Below the pieces are notes generated by a model. It was given only the letters and a program-made list of their open reading frames with translations, did not search any database and was not told the origin of the DNA. The position numbers were made by a program, and so were the translations under genes. Positions 4,041 through 45,920 of a stretch of DNA of 64,000 bases are shown in pieces. The stretch is from Candidatus Solirubrobacter pratensis (GTDB taxonomy: Bacteria > Actinomycetota > Thermoleophilia > Solirubrobacterales > Solirubrobacteraceae). The stretch's first letter is position 1. Each line of letters starts with the position of its first letter. The stretch is taken from contig NZ_AUEK01000007.1 in assembly GCF_000425945.1 (NCBI RefSeq), positions 434,001-498,000 on the forward strand, given 5' to 3'.

Positions 4041-6938
4041 GTGTTCCCCCACCGCGAGTACGCCCGTGAGCGGGTCGCCCAGGCGGCGGCCCGGCTCGCG
4101 GCGCGGGTGTGGCACGAGCGCGCGCCGCTGTCGCCGGCGCTGTCCGGACCGGTCGCGCGCGGCGAGCCGGCCGGTGAGTACCGGCCGGTCGGGCTGGGCG
4201 AGCCGCTGGGCCCGCTGTTCGCCACGCACTGGCTGCGGGCGACGGGCGCGGTCCCGCGGGAGTGGGCCGGCGCGCGCGTCGACCTCCTGCTCGAGACGGG
4301 CGGCGAGGCGACGCTGTGGGCCTGCGGCGAGCCGGTCCAGGGACTGAGCACCGGCGCGCGCCAGGCCCGGCCGGATGCGACCGTTGTCGCGTCCGCGGCG
4401 GGCGGGGAGCGGCTGACGCTCGACCTCGAGCTGGCCTCCAACGACCCATTTGGGCTCGGCGAGTCCGGCCAGGGGCTCGAGCAGGAGTTCGTCCTGCGGC
4501 GATGCGAGCTCGCGCGCTTCGATCGCGAGGCCTGGGACACGTGGTGCGACGTCGCCTTCCTCGCGGCGCTGGAGTCCTCGCCGGGGCTCGACGGGGCCTG
4601 GGCCGGCGAGCTGCTCGCCGAGCTGTACGCGTTCACGCTCGACGGCGACCGCGAGCGGCTGTGGCGGCTGCTGGCGCGCGGCTCGGGCTCCGTGCACGAG
4701 CTGTCGGCGGTCGGCCATGCGCACCTCGACACAGCCTGGCTGTGGCCGCTGGAGGAGACCTGGCGCAAGCTCGTGCGCACGACGGCGACGCAGCTGCGGC
4801 TGCTCGACGAGTACCCCGAGCACGTCTTCGCCCACTCCCAGGCCCAGCACTACGACTGGCTGCGCGAGCGTGCGCCGGCGATGTTCGCCCGCGTGCGCGA
4901 GGCGGTCGAGGCCGGGCGCTGGATCCCGGTCGGCGGCACCTGGATCGAGCCCGACTGCAACCTCCCTTCCGGCGAGTCGCTGGCGCGGCAGTTCCTCTAC
5001 GGGCAGCGCTTCTTCGAGCAGGCCTTCGGCCGCCGCTGCACGGAGTTCTGGAACCCGGACGTCTTCGGCTACACCGCCCAGCTGCCCCAGCTCATGCGCG
5101 AGGCGGGCATCACGCGCTTCCTCACGCAGAAGCTCTCGTGGAACCGCTTCACCTCCCCCGAGAGCCATACGTTCACGTGGCAGGGTCTTGACGGCTCCTC
5201 GGTCCTGACCCATTTCCCGCCCGCCGACACCTACAACGCCGAGGCGACCGTCGAGGAGCTGCGGCGCTCGGCCGCGGCCTACAAGGACCACGGCCGCTCG
5301 CACCACGGGCTGCTGGTCTTCGGCCACGGCGACGGCGGCGGAGGCCCGACGCGCGAGATGCTCGAGCGCCTGCGCCGCGCGGGCGACGTCGCGGGGCTGC
5401 CGCGCACCGTCGTCCGCTCGCCGGCGGCGTTCTTCGACGACCTCGAGGCCGACGCGCGTGACCTGCGGATCATCGTCGGGGAGCTGTATCTCGAGTTCCA
5501 TCGCGGCACCTACACGAGCCAGGCGGCGATCAAGCGCGGCAACCGGCGCGGAGAGGGCGCGCTGCACGACGCGGAGCTGCTGAGCGCGCTGCGCGCGGCG
5601 CCGTATCCGCGCGAGGAGCTCGGCCGCCTCTGGCGCGTGCTGCTGCTCAACCAGTTCCATGACATCCTCCCCGGGTCCTCGATCACCGAGGTCAACGAGC
5701 GGGCGCGCAGGGATCTGGCGGAGGTGGAGGCGGGCGCCGAGGCGCTCTGCCGCGCCGCCTTGCCGCCCGGCGAGACGCCGGTCAACACGCGCGGCTGGCC
5801 GCGCCGCGAGGTGGTGCTCGCGCCTGACGGCGAGCTCGCGCTGGTCTCGCTGCCGCCGTGCGGGGCGGGCGCGGTGCTCGCGCGCGGCTCCGCCGCGTCC
5901 CCGGCGGCAGCGCCGCTGACCGACCGCGTCGCCGCCGAGCGCCTCGCCGACGGCTCCCTCGTGCTCGCCAACGAGCACCTGCGCGCCGTCGTCGCGCCCG
6001 ACGGCACCGTCGTCTCGCTCGTCGCCGCGGGGCGCGAGGCGCTGTCCGCGCCGGCCAACCGGCTGGAGATCTACGACGACGAGCCCACGCGCTGGGATGC
6101 GTGGGAGCTCGACCCCGTCCACCTCGAGACGCGCCGCGACCTGGAGCCCGCCGCGGGCGTGGCCGAGGTGCGCGAGCACCCGCTGCGTGCCGAGGTCGCG
6201 TTCGAGCGCGGCTTCATCCGCCAGACGATCCGGCTCGATGCGGCGTCGCGCCGGCTGGAGATCCACACCGAGGTCGACTGGCTCGAGGAGCACAAGGCGC
6301 TGAAGGTCGCGTTCCCGCTCGCCGTCCACGCGACCGAGGCGACCTACGAGGTCGCGTTCGGCGCGGTGCGGCGGCCCACGCACGCATCCACCCAGGCCGA
6401 CCTCGCGCGCTTCGAGGTCCCCGGCCACCGCTGGGCGGACCTGTCCGAGCACGGGTTCGGCGTCGCCGTGCTGACGGACGCCAAGTACGGTTACTCGGCG
6501 TTCGGCGACACGCTGCGCATCACGCTCCTGCGGGCGCCGCGCCTGCCGGACCCGGAGGCCGACCGCGGCCGCCACGCCTTCGCGTACGCCCTCCTCCCCC
6601 ACGCCGGCGGCTGGCAGGACGGCGGCGTCGTGGCCGAGGCGGCGGCGTTGAACTCGCCGGTGCGCTGGAGCGACGCCGCGCCGGGCAGCTGGGCGTCGGT
6701 GGACGGCGGCCTCGTGCTCGACACCGTCAAGCGCGCGGAGGACTCCGATGCGCTCGTCCTGCGACTGTACGAGCCGCACGGCGGCCGCGGCGAGGCGCGC
6801 GTCCGCCTGGCGGCCCCGCTCACCGCCGCCGTCCGCGCGAACCTGCTCGAGGACGAGGGCGCGCCGCTCGAGCTCCGCGACGGCGAGATCGTCGTACCGT
6901 TCCGCCCGTGGGAGATCGTCACCGTCATCGCCCGCTGA
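4041..6938 (+). CDS. GH38 alpha-mannosidase
   Basis: This 965-residue protein has the length and layout of cytoplasmic class II alpha-mannosidases. The zinc-binding strand GHAHLDTAWLWP is near residue 225. The expected nucleophile region, EFWNPDVFGYTAQLPQ, is near 336-350, and VFGHGDGGGGPT near 430 is also typical. A helical linker and a long beta-rich C-terminal part follow. No secretion signal is seen, so it probably trims imported or cellular mannosides inside the cell. The GTG start is supported by the -10 element. An alcohol dehydrogenase gene follows after 4 bases. Confidence 0.9.
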   Translation: MFPHREYARERVAQAAARLAARVWHERAPLSPALSGPVARGEPAGEYRPVGLGEPLGPLFATHWLRATGAVPREWAGARVDLLLETGGEATLWACGEPVQGLSTGARQARPDATVVASAAGGERLTLDLELASNDPFGLGESGQGLEQEFVLRRCELARFDREAWDTWCDVAFLAALESSPGLDGAWAGELLAELYAFTLDGDRERLWRLLARGSGSVHELSAVGHAHLDTAWLWPLEETWRKLVRTTATQLRLLDEYPEHVFAHSQAQHYDWLRERAPAMFARVREAVEAGRWIPVGGTWIEPDCNLPSGESLARQFLYGQRFFEQAFGRRCTEFWNPDVFGYTAQLPQLMREAGITRFLTQKLSWNRFTSPESHTFTWQGLDGSSVLTHFPPADTYNAEATVEELRRSAAAYKDHGRSHHGLLVFGHGDGGGGPTREMLERLRRAGDVAGLPRTVVRSPAAFFDDLEADARDLRIIVGELYLEFHRGTYTSQAAIKRGNRRGEGALHDAELLSALRAAPYPREELGRLWRVLLLNQFHDILPGSSITEVNERARRDLAEVEAGAEALCRAALPPGETPVNTRGWPRREVVLAPDGELALVSLPPCGAGAVLARGSAASPAAAPLTDRVAAERLADGSLVLANEHLRAVVAPDGTVVSLVAAGREALSAPANRLEIYDDEPTRWDAWELDPVHLETRRDLEPAAGVAEVREHPLRAEVAFERGFIRQTIRLDAASRRLEIHTEVDWLEEHKALKVAFPLAVHATEATYEVAFGAVRRPTHASTQADLARFEVPGHRWADLSEHGFGVAVLTDAKYGYSAFGDTLRITLLRAPRLPDPEADRGRHAFAYALLPHAGGWQDGGVVAEAAALNSPVRWSDAAPGSWASVDGGLVLDTVKRAEDSDALVLRLYEPHGGRGEARVRLAAPLTAAVRANLLEDEGAPLELRDGEIVVPFRPWEIVTVIAR

Positions 6939-29917: not shown

Positions 29918-30823
29918 TCACCCGTTCGACAATTCGGCCAGTTCCGCCAGGCCGCGCTCCAGGTCCGTCGTGACCGGCTGGATGCACACGTGGTCGGCGC
30001 CGGCGTCGTGGTGCTCGCGGATGCGGGCCTTGACGGCGTCCGCGTCGCCCCAGGCGACGAGCGCGTCGACGAGACGGTCGCTGCCGCCGTCGGCGAAGTC
30101 GGCGTCCTCGAACCCGTCCTCGCGCCAGGCGTTCACGTAGTTGGGCAGCACGAGGTAGTACTTGAGGTGCTCGCGCGCGATCGCGCGCGCCTTCTCGGGC
30201 TCGGGCTCGATCACGAACCCCTGCTCGGGCGCGAGCAGCGGGCTCCTGCCTCGCGCTGCGCGCTCATCACCGCTTCGCTCGCCCAGGACCTCGCGGGCGC
30301 GCGCGGTGTGCTTGGGCGTCGTGAGGTAGGGATGCGCGCCGGCCGTGCGCTCGGCGGCGAGGCGCAGCATGCGCGGGCGCAGCGCGGCGAGCAGGACGGG
30401 CGGCGGGTCCGCGGGCGCGGGCGGCTGGTACTCGGCCTCGTCCATCTCGTCGAGGTAGGCGCGCATCGTGCTCACCGGCTTGCCGTAGTCGTGGCCGCGA
30501 TCCTTGACGGCGGGCGCGTGGCTGACGCCGAGTCCGAGGACGAAGCGCCCGCCGGAGGCGTCGGCGAGGAAGTACGCGCCCGACTTGGTCGCCGCCGGAT
30601 CGCGCACGTAGATGCTCGCGATGCCCGACGCGACGTTGATCCGCTCGGTCGCGTCGAGCAGGATCGCCGCGTGCGCCAGCGCGTCCTTGTTGCGCATGCT
30701 CTCGCCGTACCAGAGCGTGCTGTAGCCGAGCCGCTCGATCTCGCGCGCGGCGTCGCGCTCGGTCGCGGCGTCCTGGCTCCCGAGCAGAGCCCACCAGACG
30801 CCGAGCCTCCCGAGGTCGGTCAT
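29918..30823 (-). CDS. LLM-class F420-dependent oxidoreductase
   Basis: This 301-residue luciferase-like TIM-barrel protein has LGRLGVWWALLGSQDAA at the start, ERLGYSTLWYGE, GGRFVLGLGVSHAP near residue 93 and HVCIQPVTTD at the end, typical of F420-dependent flavin-like oxidoreductases. Residues about 182-193 (GERSGDERAARG) are an insertion in an otherwise standard loop. The DNA for this insertion is repeated exactly in murT. The start overlaps the stop of the F420-reductase-like gene. Confidence 0.87.
   Translation of the reverse strand: MTDLGRLGVWWALLGSQDAATERDAAREIERLGYSTLWYGESMRNKDALAHAAILLDATERINVASGIASIYVRDPAATKSGAYFLADASGGRFVLGLGVSHAPAVKDRGHDYGKPVSTMRAYLDEMDEAEYQPPAPADPPPVLLAALRPRMLRLAAERTAGAHPYLTTPKHTARAREVLGERSGDERAARGRSPLLAPEQGFVIEPEPEKARAIAREHLKYYLVLPNYVNAWREDGFEDADFADGGSDRLVDALVAWGDADAVKARIREHHDAGADHVCIQPVTTDLERGLAELAELSNG
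30246..30283 (-). repeat. Copy 1 of 38-bp coding repeat
   Basis: On the minus strand this stretch begins GGCGAGCGAAGCGG and ends GCGCAGCGCGAGGCAG. It is identical over 38 bp to 45789-45826 (plus strand). In both places it is read in the same frame, giving GERSGDERAARG, inside unrelated proteins. Confidence 0.9.
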
Positions 30824-43584: not shown

Positions 43585-44460
43585 ATGGACGGCCCGGTCT
43601 GCCTGATCGTGAACCCGCACGCCGGCGGCGGCCGCGCGATGCGGCTCCTGCCGGGCGTCGAGTCCGCGCTGCGCTCGATGGGGCGCTCGTTCCGGGTCGA
43701 GCCGACGGCGTCGATGGAGCACGCCCGCGAGCTGGCGCGTGGGGCGCGCGACGCGGGCGAGATCGTCGCCGCGATGGGCGGCGACGGCATCACCGGCGCC
43801 GTCGCGGGCGAGCTGCGTGACGGCGGCGGCCTGCTGGCCGTCCTGCCCGGCGGCCGCGGGAACGACTTCGCGCGCAAGCTCGGGATCCCGCACGACCCCG
43901 TCGCGGCGTGCGAGCTGCTCGAGCACGGGCGCGAGCGGCGCGTCGACCTCGCCGACGCGGGAGACGTCGCGTTCCTGGGCATCCTCTCGGCCGGCCTGGA
44001 CTCCGATGTCAACCGGATCGCCAACGAGACACGCCTGCCGCTCGGGACCAACGTGTACGTCTACGGCGCGCTGCGCGCGCTGGCGGTGTGGAAGCACGCC
44101 GGCTGGGCGGTCACGGTCGACGGCGAGGAGATCGAGTTCAGCGGGTACTCGGTCGCCGTGTCGAACTCGGGCGTGTTCGGCGGCGGCATGTACCTCGTAC
44201 CGGACGCCTCGCTCGACGACGGGCTGCTCGACGTCGTGCTGATCGCCGCCCACGGCAAAGTGAACTACCTGCGCGGTCTGCAGCGCGTGTTCAAGGGCAC
44301 GCACCTCGACGATCCCGCGCTCAAGCTCCTGCGCGGCCGCGAGATCACCTTCCGCGCCGACCGGCCGTTCACCGCCTACGCCGACGGGGACCCCGTCGCG
44401 CCGCTGCCGCTGACGGTCCGCGCGCTGCCGGGCGCGCTGCGGGTGGTGGCGCCGCGATGA
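43585..44460 (+). CDS. Diacylglycerol/lipid kinase family protein
   Basis: This 291-residue kinase has the DAGK catalytic motifs IVNPHAGGGRA at the start, AAMGGDGITGAVAGEL near residue 67 and LPGGRGNDFARKLG near 90. The C-terminal beta domain has SNSGVFGGGMYLVPDASLDDG. It probably phosphorylates a lipid such as diacylglycerol. The stop overlaps the murT start (ATGA), so it opens the wall-precursor operon. Confidence 0.9.
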   Translation: MDGPVCLIVNPHAGGGRAMRLLPGVESALRSMGRSFRVEPTASMEHARELARGARDAGEIVAAMGGDGITGAVAGELRDGGGLLAVLPGGRGNDFARKLGIPHDPVAACELLEHGRERRVDLADAGDVAFLGILSAGLDSDVNRIANETRLPLGTNVYVYGALRALAVWKHAGWAVTVDGEEIEFSGYSVAVSNSGVFGGGMYLVPDASLDDGLLDVVLIAAHGKVNYLRGLQRVFKGTHLDDPALKLLRGREITFRADRPFTAYADGDPVAPLPLTVRALPGALRVVAPR

Positions 44461-45920
44461 TGCGGCTGGCCGCCGGGGTGGCCGCCGCCAAGGCGGTCGG
44501 GACGCTGGCGCGCACGGCCGGCCGCGGCGGCGGGACGTCGCTGCCGGGGAAGGTCCTGACGCGCGTCGAGCCGCACGCGATCGGGCAGCTGGCGCGGCGG
44601 CTGGAGCGCGGCAGCGTCGTGATCTCCGCCACCAACGGCAAGACCACCACCGCGGCGATGGTCGCCTCGATCCTCGAGCGCGGCGGCGCGCGGCTGGTCC
44701 ACAACCGGGCCGGGGCGAACATGGCGGGCGGGATCGCGAGCGCGCTCGCGGCCGCCTCGCGCCGCGGCGGGCGCGCGCTGACCGGCGACTTCGGCCTCTT
44801 CGAGGTCGACGAGTTCTGGCTCGGCGCGCTCGTCGAGGAGCTCGAGCCGCGCGCGATGCTGCTCGGGAACCTGTTCCGCGACCAGCTGGACCGCTACGGC
44901 GAGCTGGAGACGATCGCCGACCGCTGGGCCGCCGTCGTGGCCGCGAGCAGCGCCGCGCTGGTGCTCAACGCCGACGACCCGCTGATCGCGGACCTCGGCC
45001 GCGCCTCCTCGCCGGCCGGGACCGCATCGCATCGACCCGGCCCGCCTTCGCCAGCCCACGGCGGTCCCCAAAGCATTCGCGCCGGCGAATGCGTCTATTT
45101 CGGCGTCGACGACGACTCGCTCGCGCTGCCCGAGCTCCAGCACGCGTCGGACTCCAAGCACTGCCGCCGCTGCGGGCACGCCTACGTCTACACGGCGGTC
45201 TACCTCGCCCACCTCGGGCACTACCGGTGCCCGAACTGCGGGCAGGAGCGCCCGGAGCCCGCGGTCGTCGCGACGGGCGTCGAGCTGCGCGGGATCCGCA
45301 GTGCGGCGTTCACCCTGCGCGGGCGGCGCGTCGAGCTCCCGCTGCCGGGCCTGTACAACGTCTACAACGCGCTCGGCGCGGCGGCGCTCACGCTCTCGCT
45401 GGGCGTGTCGCTCGACGACGTCGTCGCGGGCCTGGAGGGCGTCGCGCCGGCGTTCGGCCGCGCGGAGACGCTCGATCTCGGCCGCCCCACGTCGCTGCTG
45501 CTGGTGAAGAACCCCGCGGGCGCCAACGAGGTGCTGCGCACGCTGGCGCTCGAGGCCGGTCAGCTCGACATCCTCGGCGTGCTCAACGACCGCACCGCCG
45601 ACGGGCGCGACGTCTCGTGGGTGTGGGACGCCGACTGGGAGCTGCTCGTGCCGCACGTGCGGCGGATGACGTGCGCGGGCACGCGCGCCGCCGAGCTTGC
45701 GCTGCGGATGAAGTACGCGGGGCTGCCGGCGGAGCGGATCCGCGTCGTCGAGGCGCTCGAGCCCGCGCTGGACGCGGCACTCGCCGACGGCGAGCGAAGC
45801 GGTGATGAGCGCGCAGCGCGAGGCAGTGACCCGCTCTACGTCGTTCCGACCTACACCGCGCTGCTGGAGCTGCGCGAGCTGCTGACCCGGCGCGGCCAGG
45901 CGGAGGCGTACTGGCGGTGA
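44457..45920 (+). CDS. murT: Lipid II isoglutaminyl synthase, MurT subunit, with two insertions
   Basis: MurT, with GatD, amidates D-Glu of the lipid II stem peptide. This 487-residue Mur ligase-like protein has the ATP motif SATNGKTTTAAM near residue 58. A Cys4 zinc ribbon (CRRCGHAY, CPNCG) sits near 235-262, and the C-terminal DUF1727 domain ends in YVVPTYTALLELRELL. Two odd insertions stand out: about 30 residues near 183-212 containing a DNA palindrome, and GERSGDERAARG near 445-456, which is the repeated 38-bp element. Confidence 0.92.
   Translation: MMRLAAGVAAAKAVGTLARTAGRGGGTSLPGKVLTRVEPHAIGQLARRLERGSVVISATNGKTTTAAMVASILERGGARLVHNRAGANMAGGIASALAAASRRGGRALTGDFGLFEVDEFWLGALVEELEPRAMLLGNLFRDQLDRYGELETIADRWAAVVAASSAALVLNADDPLIADLGRASSPAGTASHRPGPPSPAHGGPQSIRAGECVYFGVDDDSLALPELQHASDSKHCRRCGHAYVYTAVYLAHLGHYRCPNCGQERPEPAVVATGVELRGIRSAAFTLRGRRVELPLPGLYNVYNALGAAALTLSLGVSLDDVVAGLEGVAPAFGRAETLDLGRPTSLLLVKNPAGANEVLRTLALEAGQLDILGVLNDRTADGRDVSWVWDADWELLVPHVRRMTCAGTRAAELALRMKYAGLPAERIRVVEALEPALDAALADGERSGDERAARGSDPLYVVPTYTALLELRELLTRRGQAEAYWR
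45073..45092 (+). repeat. Perfect 8-bp hairpin inside murT
   Basis: GCATTCGC and GCGAATGC flank a 4-base loop GCCG. The element lies in a stretch (about 45004-45092) that interrupts the normal MurT sequence between LGR and VYFGVDD. Confidence 0.8.
45789..45826 (+). repeat. Copy 2 of 38-bp coding repeat
   Basis: Identical to the minus strand of 30246-30283 over 38 bp and read in the same frame. Here it inserts GERSGDERAARG before the conserved LYVVPTYTALLELR end of MurT. Confidence 0.9.

Follow-up and report, generated by a model that had tools for sequence, protein, structure and literature searches.

Introduction

In-frame inserts of short palindromic repeats in protein-coding genes have been described in Rickettsia, where, according to parts of PMC10969869, the repeats lie within genes for unrelated proteins and lengthen each product by a peptide. 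The portions of PMC10969869 and PMC3733652 consulted here describe these Rickettsia palindromic elements (RPEs) either as repeats of approximately 150 bp or as repetitive extragenic palindromic (REP) sequences tagged with CGTC (RPE-4, RPE-6), and intragenic REPs occur in several species (PMC3733652, section 15). In the sections of PMC3733652 drawn on here, REPs of the GTAG and CGTC superfamilies are small hairpins with four unpaired nucleotides, GTAG or CGTC, at one of their ends, and the GTAG-23 REPs of T. roseum are reported to lie within small palindromes rich in GC. Mycobacterial interspersed repetitive units (MIRU) are, as described in part of PMC12548453, short repeats situated at start codons. 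Here we analyse a 64,000-nt stretch of the Candidatus Solirubrobacter pratensis genome (the window, in whose numbering coordinates are given) and a 36-nt repeat, B, which is found in frame within its genes for an LLM/luciferase-like oxidoreductase and for MurT and gains a net 33 bp at clean sites. B is very probably a miniature, non-autonomous mobile element, similar in kind to intragenic REPs and RPEs, that has spread by copying within two soil-dwelling species of Solirubrobacter.

Results

Two window copies and the conserved repeat unit

An initial annotation of the window had reported two identical 38-bp copies on opposite strands, in frame within the LLM and MurT genes, and both the sequence match and the Pfam domains bear this out. 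Positions 30246-30283 (minus strand) and 45789-45826 (plus strand) agree at 38/38 bp via the reverse complement, the former within the oxidoreductase gene at 29918..30823 (minus strand; Pfam Bac_luciferase) and the latter within murT at 44457..45920 (plus strand; Pfam MurT_C, full 110 positions). No other exact repeat of at least 22 bp links opposite strands within the window, and the sequence around the two copies is unrelated outside the match. Alignment of 15 copies delimits B as a conserved unit of 36 nt, CGAGCGAAGCGGTGA-YGAG-N9/10-CGAGGCAG, slightly shorter than the 38-bp match, whose leading bases vary between copies. B occupies 30246..30281 (minus strand) in the LLM gene and 45791..45826 (plus strand) in murT, where a covariance model of B (R2) scores 60.2 bits in cmsearch at each site in addition to the 38-bp identity.

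The termini of B are constant in 15/15 aligned copies, with CGAG at the start and GGCAG at the end; the inner GACG/GATG is variable and non-terminal, and the same alignment reveals no obvious terminal inverted repeats of the kind that, with a target-site duplication, characterise a MITE. The left arm of 15 nt is almost invariant and includes GCGAAGC in 14/15 copies and GCGGAGC in the remaining one; d(GCGAAGC) is an unusually stable DNA mini-hairpin. B also forms a small tip hairpin, YGAG-NNN-NNN-NNN-CGAG, in which 94.5% of the alignment cells are paired, as opposed to at most 47.3% in controls with the partner slid, and eight cells are double-changed against a shuffle mean of 3.0. Pairing in the tip is kept via compensatory changes. 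Two copies reach 66 nt, one in ArgB of this genome (L021:1500-1565) and one in a NUDIX protein of Solirubrobacter soli (L211:1501-1566), each having a tip with a 33-nt stretch where the others have 3 nt. These two stretches are equal at 17/33 positions (shuffle mean 10.7, with approximately 1.4% of shuffles as high) and, judging from this similarity, may be related.

B is dispersed in two species

R2 was searched in eight genome records, comprising this genome, S. soli DSM 22325, a record (G152) that returned identical hits and is taken to represent S. soli, and five other congeners, among which G119 and G151 look near-identical. The search returned 13 strong copies here (E ≤6.6e-15), seven in S. 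soli (E ≤2.4e-14) and no strong copy in the five other congeners, where the best match had an E-value of 4.2e-9. The copies in this genome are scattered across five contigs, and those of S. soli occupy other sites. An 18-nt core, GAGCGAAGCGGTGAYGAG, allowed at most one mismatch, matched 16 times in the 6.64 Mb genome and never in its reversed control; at this level nine others among 151 genomes of the order had one match each, and the sampled congeners G063, G119 and G148 had none. At three mismatches there were 80 matches versus 24 in the reversed control, and this level was not used. Chance origin in GC-rich DNA is ruled out by the reversed-pattern controls. The exact B pattern, run over 84,980 species from which this genome is possibly excluded, retrieved three S. 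soli loci, one locus in Sunxiuqinia indica and no match in Rickettsia.

Some of these matches were set aside. That in S. indica, a member of the Bacteroidetes (L053), lies in a different repeat context and was taken as chance or convergence rather than as a copy of B; on the minus strand of this locus, at approximately 6600-6800, two hairpin-like repeats are centred on GAGCGAAGCGG, whose resemblance to the B left arm we likewise take as chance or as convergence on the GCGAAGC mini-hairpin. L025 and L026, in which the core occurs with GGCGAG, were excluded from the B counts, as they appear to belong to an intergenic repeat other than B. A core variant, GAGCGAAGCGGTGGCGA, seemingly intergenic and followed by GACAGGG or similar, is found in L025, L026 (near 1500) and L214, and these loci perhaps represent another repeat family, located upstream of genes in both species.

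Filled and empty sites

At five clean sites the net gain attributable to B is 11 residues, or 33 bp. Protein alignment reveals an 11-residue gap at the B site in 6/6 congeneric MurT orthologues and in 7/7 LLM homologues from six congeners (36-48% identity), and differences of 11 residues are found at the B sites of an acetoacetate decarboxylase-like protein relative to 4zbo and of a histidine kinase relative to 3ehf. The fifth site lies in a diacylglycerol kinase-like gene that adjoins murT in the window (43585..44460, plus strand), where the empty form encodes 291 residues versus 302 for the filled S. soli protein, with 11 gap columns in the whole alignment of the two. These neighbouring genes are filled reciprocally, with B in the kinase only in S. 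soli and in murT only in this genome, so that shared ancestry offers no simple explanation. As to the insert shared by LLM and MurT, the initial annotation was right that both proteins carry the same peptide; the net gain is 11 residues and not 12, and 33 bp rather than the 38 bp of the match. Its proviso that the insert might be ancestral in the two genes can be dismissed, since the 11 residues are absent from all the MurT (6/6) and LLM (7/7) relatives.

Elsewhere in murT, positions 45009-45080 encode approximately 24 extra residues that are absent from five congeners, S. soli having a different and shorter extra there, and the DNA of this segment folds into two hairpins. A DNA search of seven genomes for this candidate second dispersed element gave no further copy better than E 0.011, and in view of this lack of a second copy we treat it as a variable loop.

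Coding copies share one orientation and one frame

The 13 copies in this genome comprise five coding ones (LLM, MurT, the histidine kinase, an AMP ligase and the N-terminus of ArgB) and eight within a second repeat, A. In S. soli, five copies are coding (in the diacylglycerol kinase-like, acetoacetate decarboxylase-like and NUDIX proteins, in L052 and at the N-terminus of L205) and the two remaining ones look intergenic. All ten coding copies, which lie in unrelated reading frames, are read in one orientation and one frame and yield the peptide ERSGDE...RG, with the L205 copy reading R-S-G-D-E. Each of them has five of six frames free of stops (the test of the AMP-ligase copy covered 26 of its 36 nt), and, if open frames are drawn evenly, the chance of ten agreeing is by our own arithmetic approximately 5e-7, or approximately 1e-5 for the eight clearly internal copies. 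The coding frame remains intact because the net length of B is a multiple of three. Two sense-oriented copies of A that contain B are also read through in the B frame, as C-terminal tails.

B is nested in the hairpin tip of repeat A

Repeat A, situated between the genes of operons, consists of two hairpins, GGGAGAATCGCC-CCCT-GGGCGATTGCTCCC and GCGACGCGAGCCC-NNN-GGGCGAGTCGTCGC, and across 27 copies, taken from congeners as well as from this genome, its stems have double changes at 11/24 pairs compared with 4.2 in shuffles. A model of long A copies (R1) finds 62 places in this genome at E ≤1, 52 of which were examined in context, the ten weaker listed matches being excluded from the counts that follow. 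Forty-four of these places lack B and eight contain it, one of the eight as a short match; 8/13 strong B copies of this genome sit in the tip of hairpin 2 of A. Copies without B measure 74 bp in 30/44 cases and those with B 107 bp in 5/8, a difference of +33; when the 36-nt B is subtracted from these five filled copies, 71 nt remain, as if B had taken the place of the 3-nt loop. The tips of B and A have the common form YGAG-3-3-3-CGAG, with like stem and loop types.

Among the 44 empty copies, 25 are antisense to two co-stranded flanking genes, one has the opposite arrangement and the others are mixed or unclear, the strands of the flanks being judged from codon-position GC content. Followed in the direction of the genes, many copies start with GTGA or ATGA and end with GAGGTGA shortly upstream of a start codon, and some are tandem. 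One such array, G000:C3:193043-193266 (L069, L070, L153), holds three tandem A units in 75-bp steps and is possibly a variable-number repeat like MIRU-VNTR (variable-number tandem repeats). A is present in 6/7 genomes of the genus, and R1 has no match in S. soli at E 0.01; B therefore does not require A.

Discussion

The identity of the two window copies with each other, and their distinctness from every other aligned copy, are what would be expected if local gene conversion or recombination, with no mobile element involved, had carried sequence across the 15.5 kb that separate the LLM gene from murT. Gene conversion as the full account, which the initial annotation had named as an outcome that would refute its idea, is itself refuted by 18 more strong copies elsewhere, on five contigs here and at other sites in S. 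soli; the flanks of the two window copies are, moreover, unrelated, and in S. soli B occupies a different site, within the kinase gene next to murT. We therefore regard this account as very improbable, whereas recent copying between the LLM and murT sites is possible for this pair alone. Still harder to credit is that the host proteins share a motif or small domain of ancestral origin: ten of them do have the ERSGDE...RG peptide in common, but it is absent from orthologues or solved homologues at 5/6 internal sites tested, which refutes an ancestral motif for those five, and the non-coding copies within A retain the DNA sequence together with its hairpin.

A functional nucleic-acid signal, whether a binding site or an RNA element, that is selected wherever it arises and does not move would account for the near-invariance of the left arm and for the covarying hairpin, and the antisense position of 25/44 empty A copies between co-directional genes recalls regulatory RNA repeats. 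Against such a signal stand the lack of a strong B copy in five congeners and the unrelatedness of the host genes; the gain of exactly 33 bp relative to orthologues resembles insertion, and Rfam covariance models gave nothing meaningful in the window or in 16 loci. On balance we consider this reading unlikely. The view that B is a mobile element able to enter genes without breaking them, as the initial annotation had suggested, largely holds, with movement inferred from the dispersed copies and the filled and empty sites; what that annotation had missed are the net length of 33 bp, the nesting in A and the single coding frame and orientation.

Several observations weigh against B as a mobile element. 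In the tip hairpin, neither the count of doubly changed pairs nor that of pair types is higher than in shuffles. The conserved unit has 36 nt and the gain is 33, so that a target duplication is inseparable from the 3-nt difference, and the copies of A that contain B could stem from few events. Of the ten coding copies, those in ArgB and L205 lie at the N-terminus and are possibly part of a leader, and the AMP ligase aligns without a gap at the B site with the solved MenE structure 5x8f; given no net gain in this alignment with the solved homologue, the site is not counted as a clean insertion. PF01797 (Y1_Tnp) has no match in this genome, which is 96% complete, and one to three in each of six congeners, and R1 and R2 place no strong copy of A or B beside the Y1 genes scanned. 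Transposition is deduced from the filled and empty sites, and the mobilising enzyme is putative. In congeners G119, G148 and G151 approximately 5 kb separate A from a Y1 gene, but neither A nor B flanks the scanned Y1 genes, and this proximity was not accepted as a sign of a link.

If B is nevertheless mobile, as we favour, a trans-acting enzyme would most likely copy it to new sites, and the intermediate would be single-stranded or a hairpin. Selection would then retain only those coding copies that are tolerated, which would produce the frame bias: coding B would survive where its orientation and frame are those that yield the polar linker ERSGDE...RG, and in loops, as the alignments suggest. 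In this genome B would have entered the hairpin-2 tip of A or been copied together with it. More speculatively, B could be a protein-compatible mobile module, a net gain of 33 bp that in its one favoured strand and frame codes for a polar and flexible linker, with one machinery that recognises the YGAG-3-3-3-CGAG tip, grows repeats at hairpin loops and spreads both A and B, and the second-level tips present in two species, +30 nt each, could have arisen when this process acted once more; we put this forward as a tentative extension that is rather doubtful as a whole.

B represents in-frame insertion of a palindromic repeat in a group for which the consulted literature does not report such inserts; the word 'Actinobacteria' is absent from the main text of PMC3733652, and no description of this repeat was found among titles and abstracts of the open-access literature. 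Its filled and empty sites are very clean and, in neighbouring genes of two species, reciprocal; the spacer of +11 residues is small enough for a direct test of enzyme function; and the system provides a route to asking what moves short hairpin repeats without the REP tag or, here, a visible Y1 transposase.

Among described systems, MIRU resemble repeat A, which lies between co-directional genes at start and stop codons and is in some cases tandem, a likeness that follows the description in the part of the MIRU source cited above; MIRU leave B in coding genes unexplained. With REP and REPIN sequences, hairpin repeats of 20-40 bp that are in some cases intragenic, B shares its dispersal and the compensatory changes in its stem, and the nesting of the T. 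roseum GTAG-23 REPs resembles that of B within A. B differs from the REP/RAYT (TnpA-REP) system in that a search of this genome for PF01797 genes found none and the repeat does not flank the scanned Y1 genes. A GTAG or CGTC end tag was looked for in B, and 15/15 copies have CGAG...GGCAG instead; lacking the tag, B is not classed as a member of the REP superfamilies. The comparison with Rickettsia palindromic elements made by the initial annotation is apt as a functional likeness, given that B is also short and palindromic, in frame in unrelated genes and, the AMP ligase excepted, absent from orthologues. B differs from RPEs in its gain of 33 bp, its lack of a CGTC end, its Solirubrobacter host and its ten coding copies in a single frame. 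B behaves like the intragenic REP and RPE inserts but lacks their GTAG/CGTC tag.
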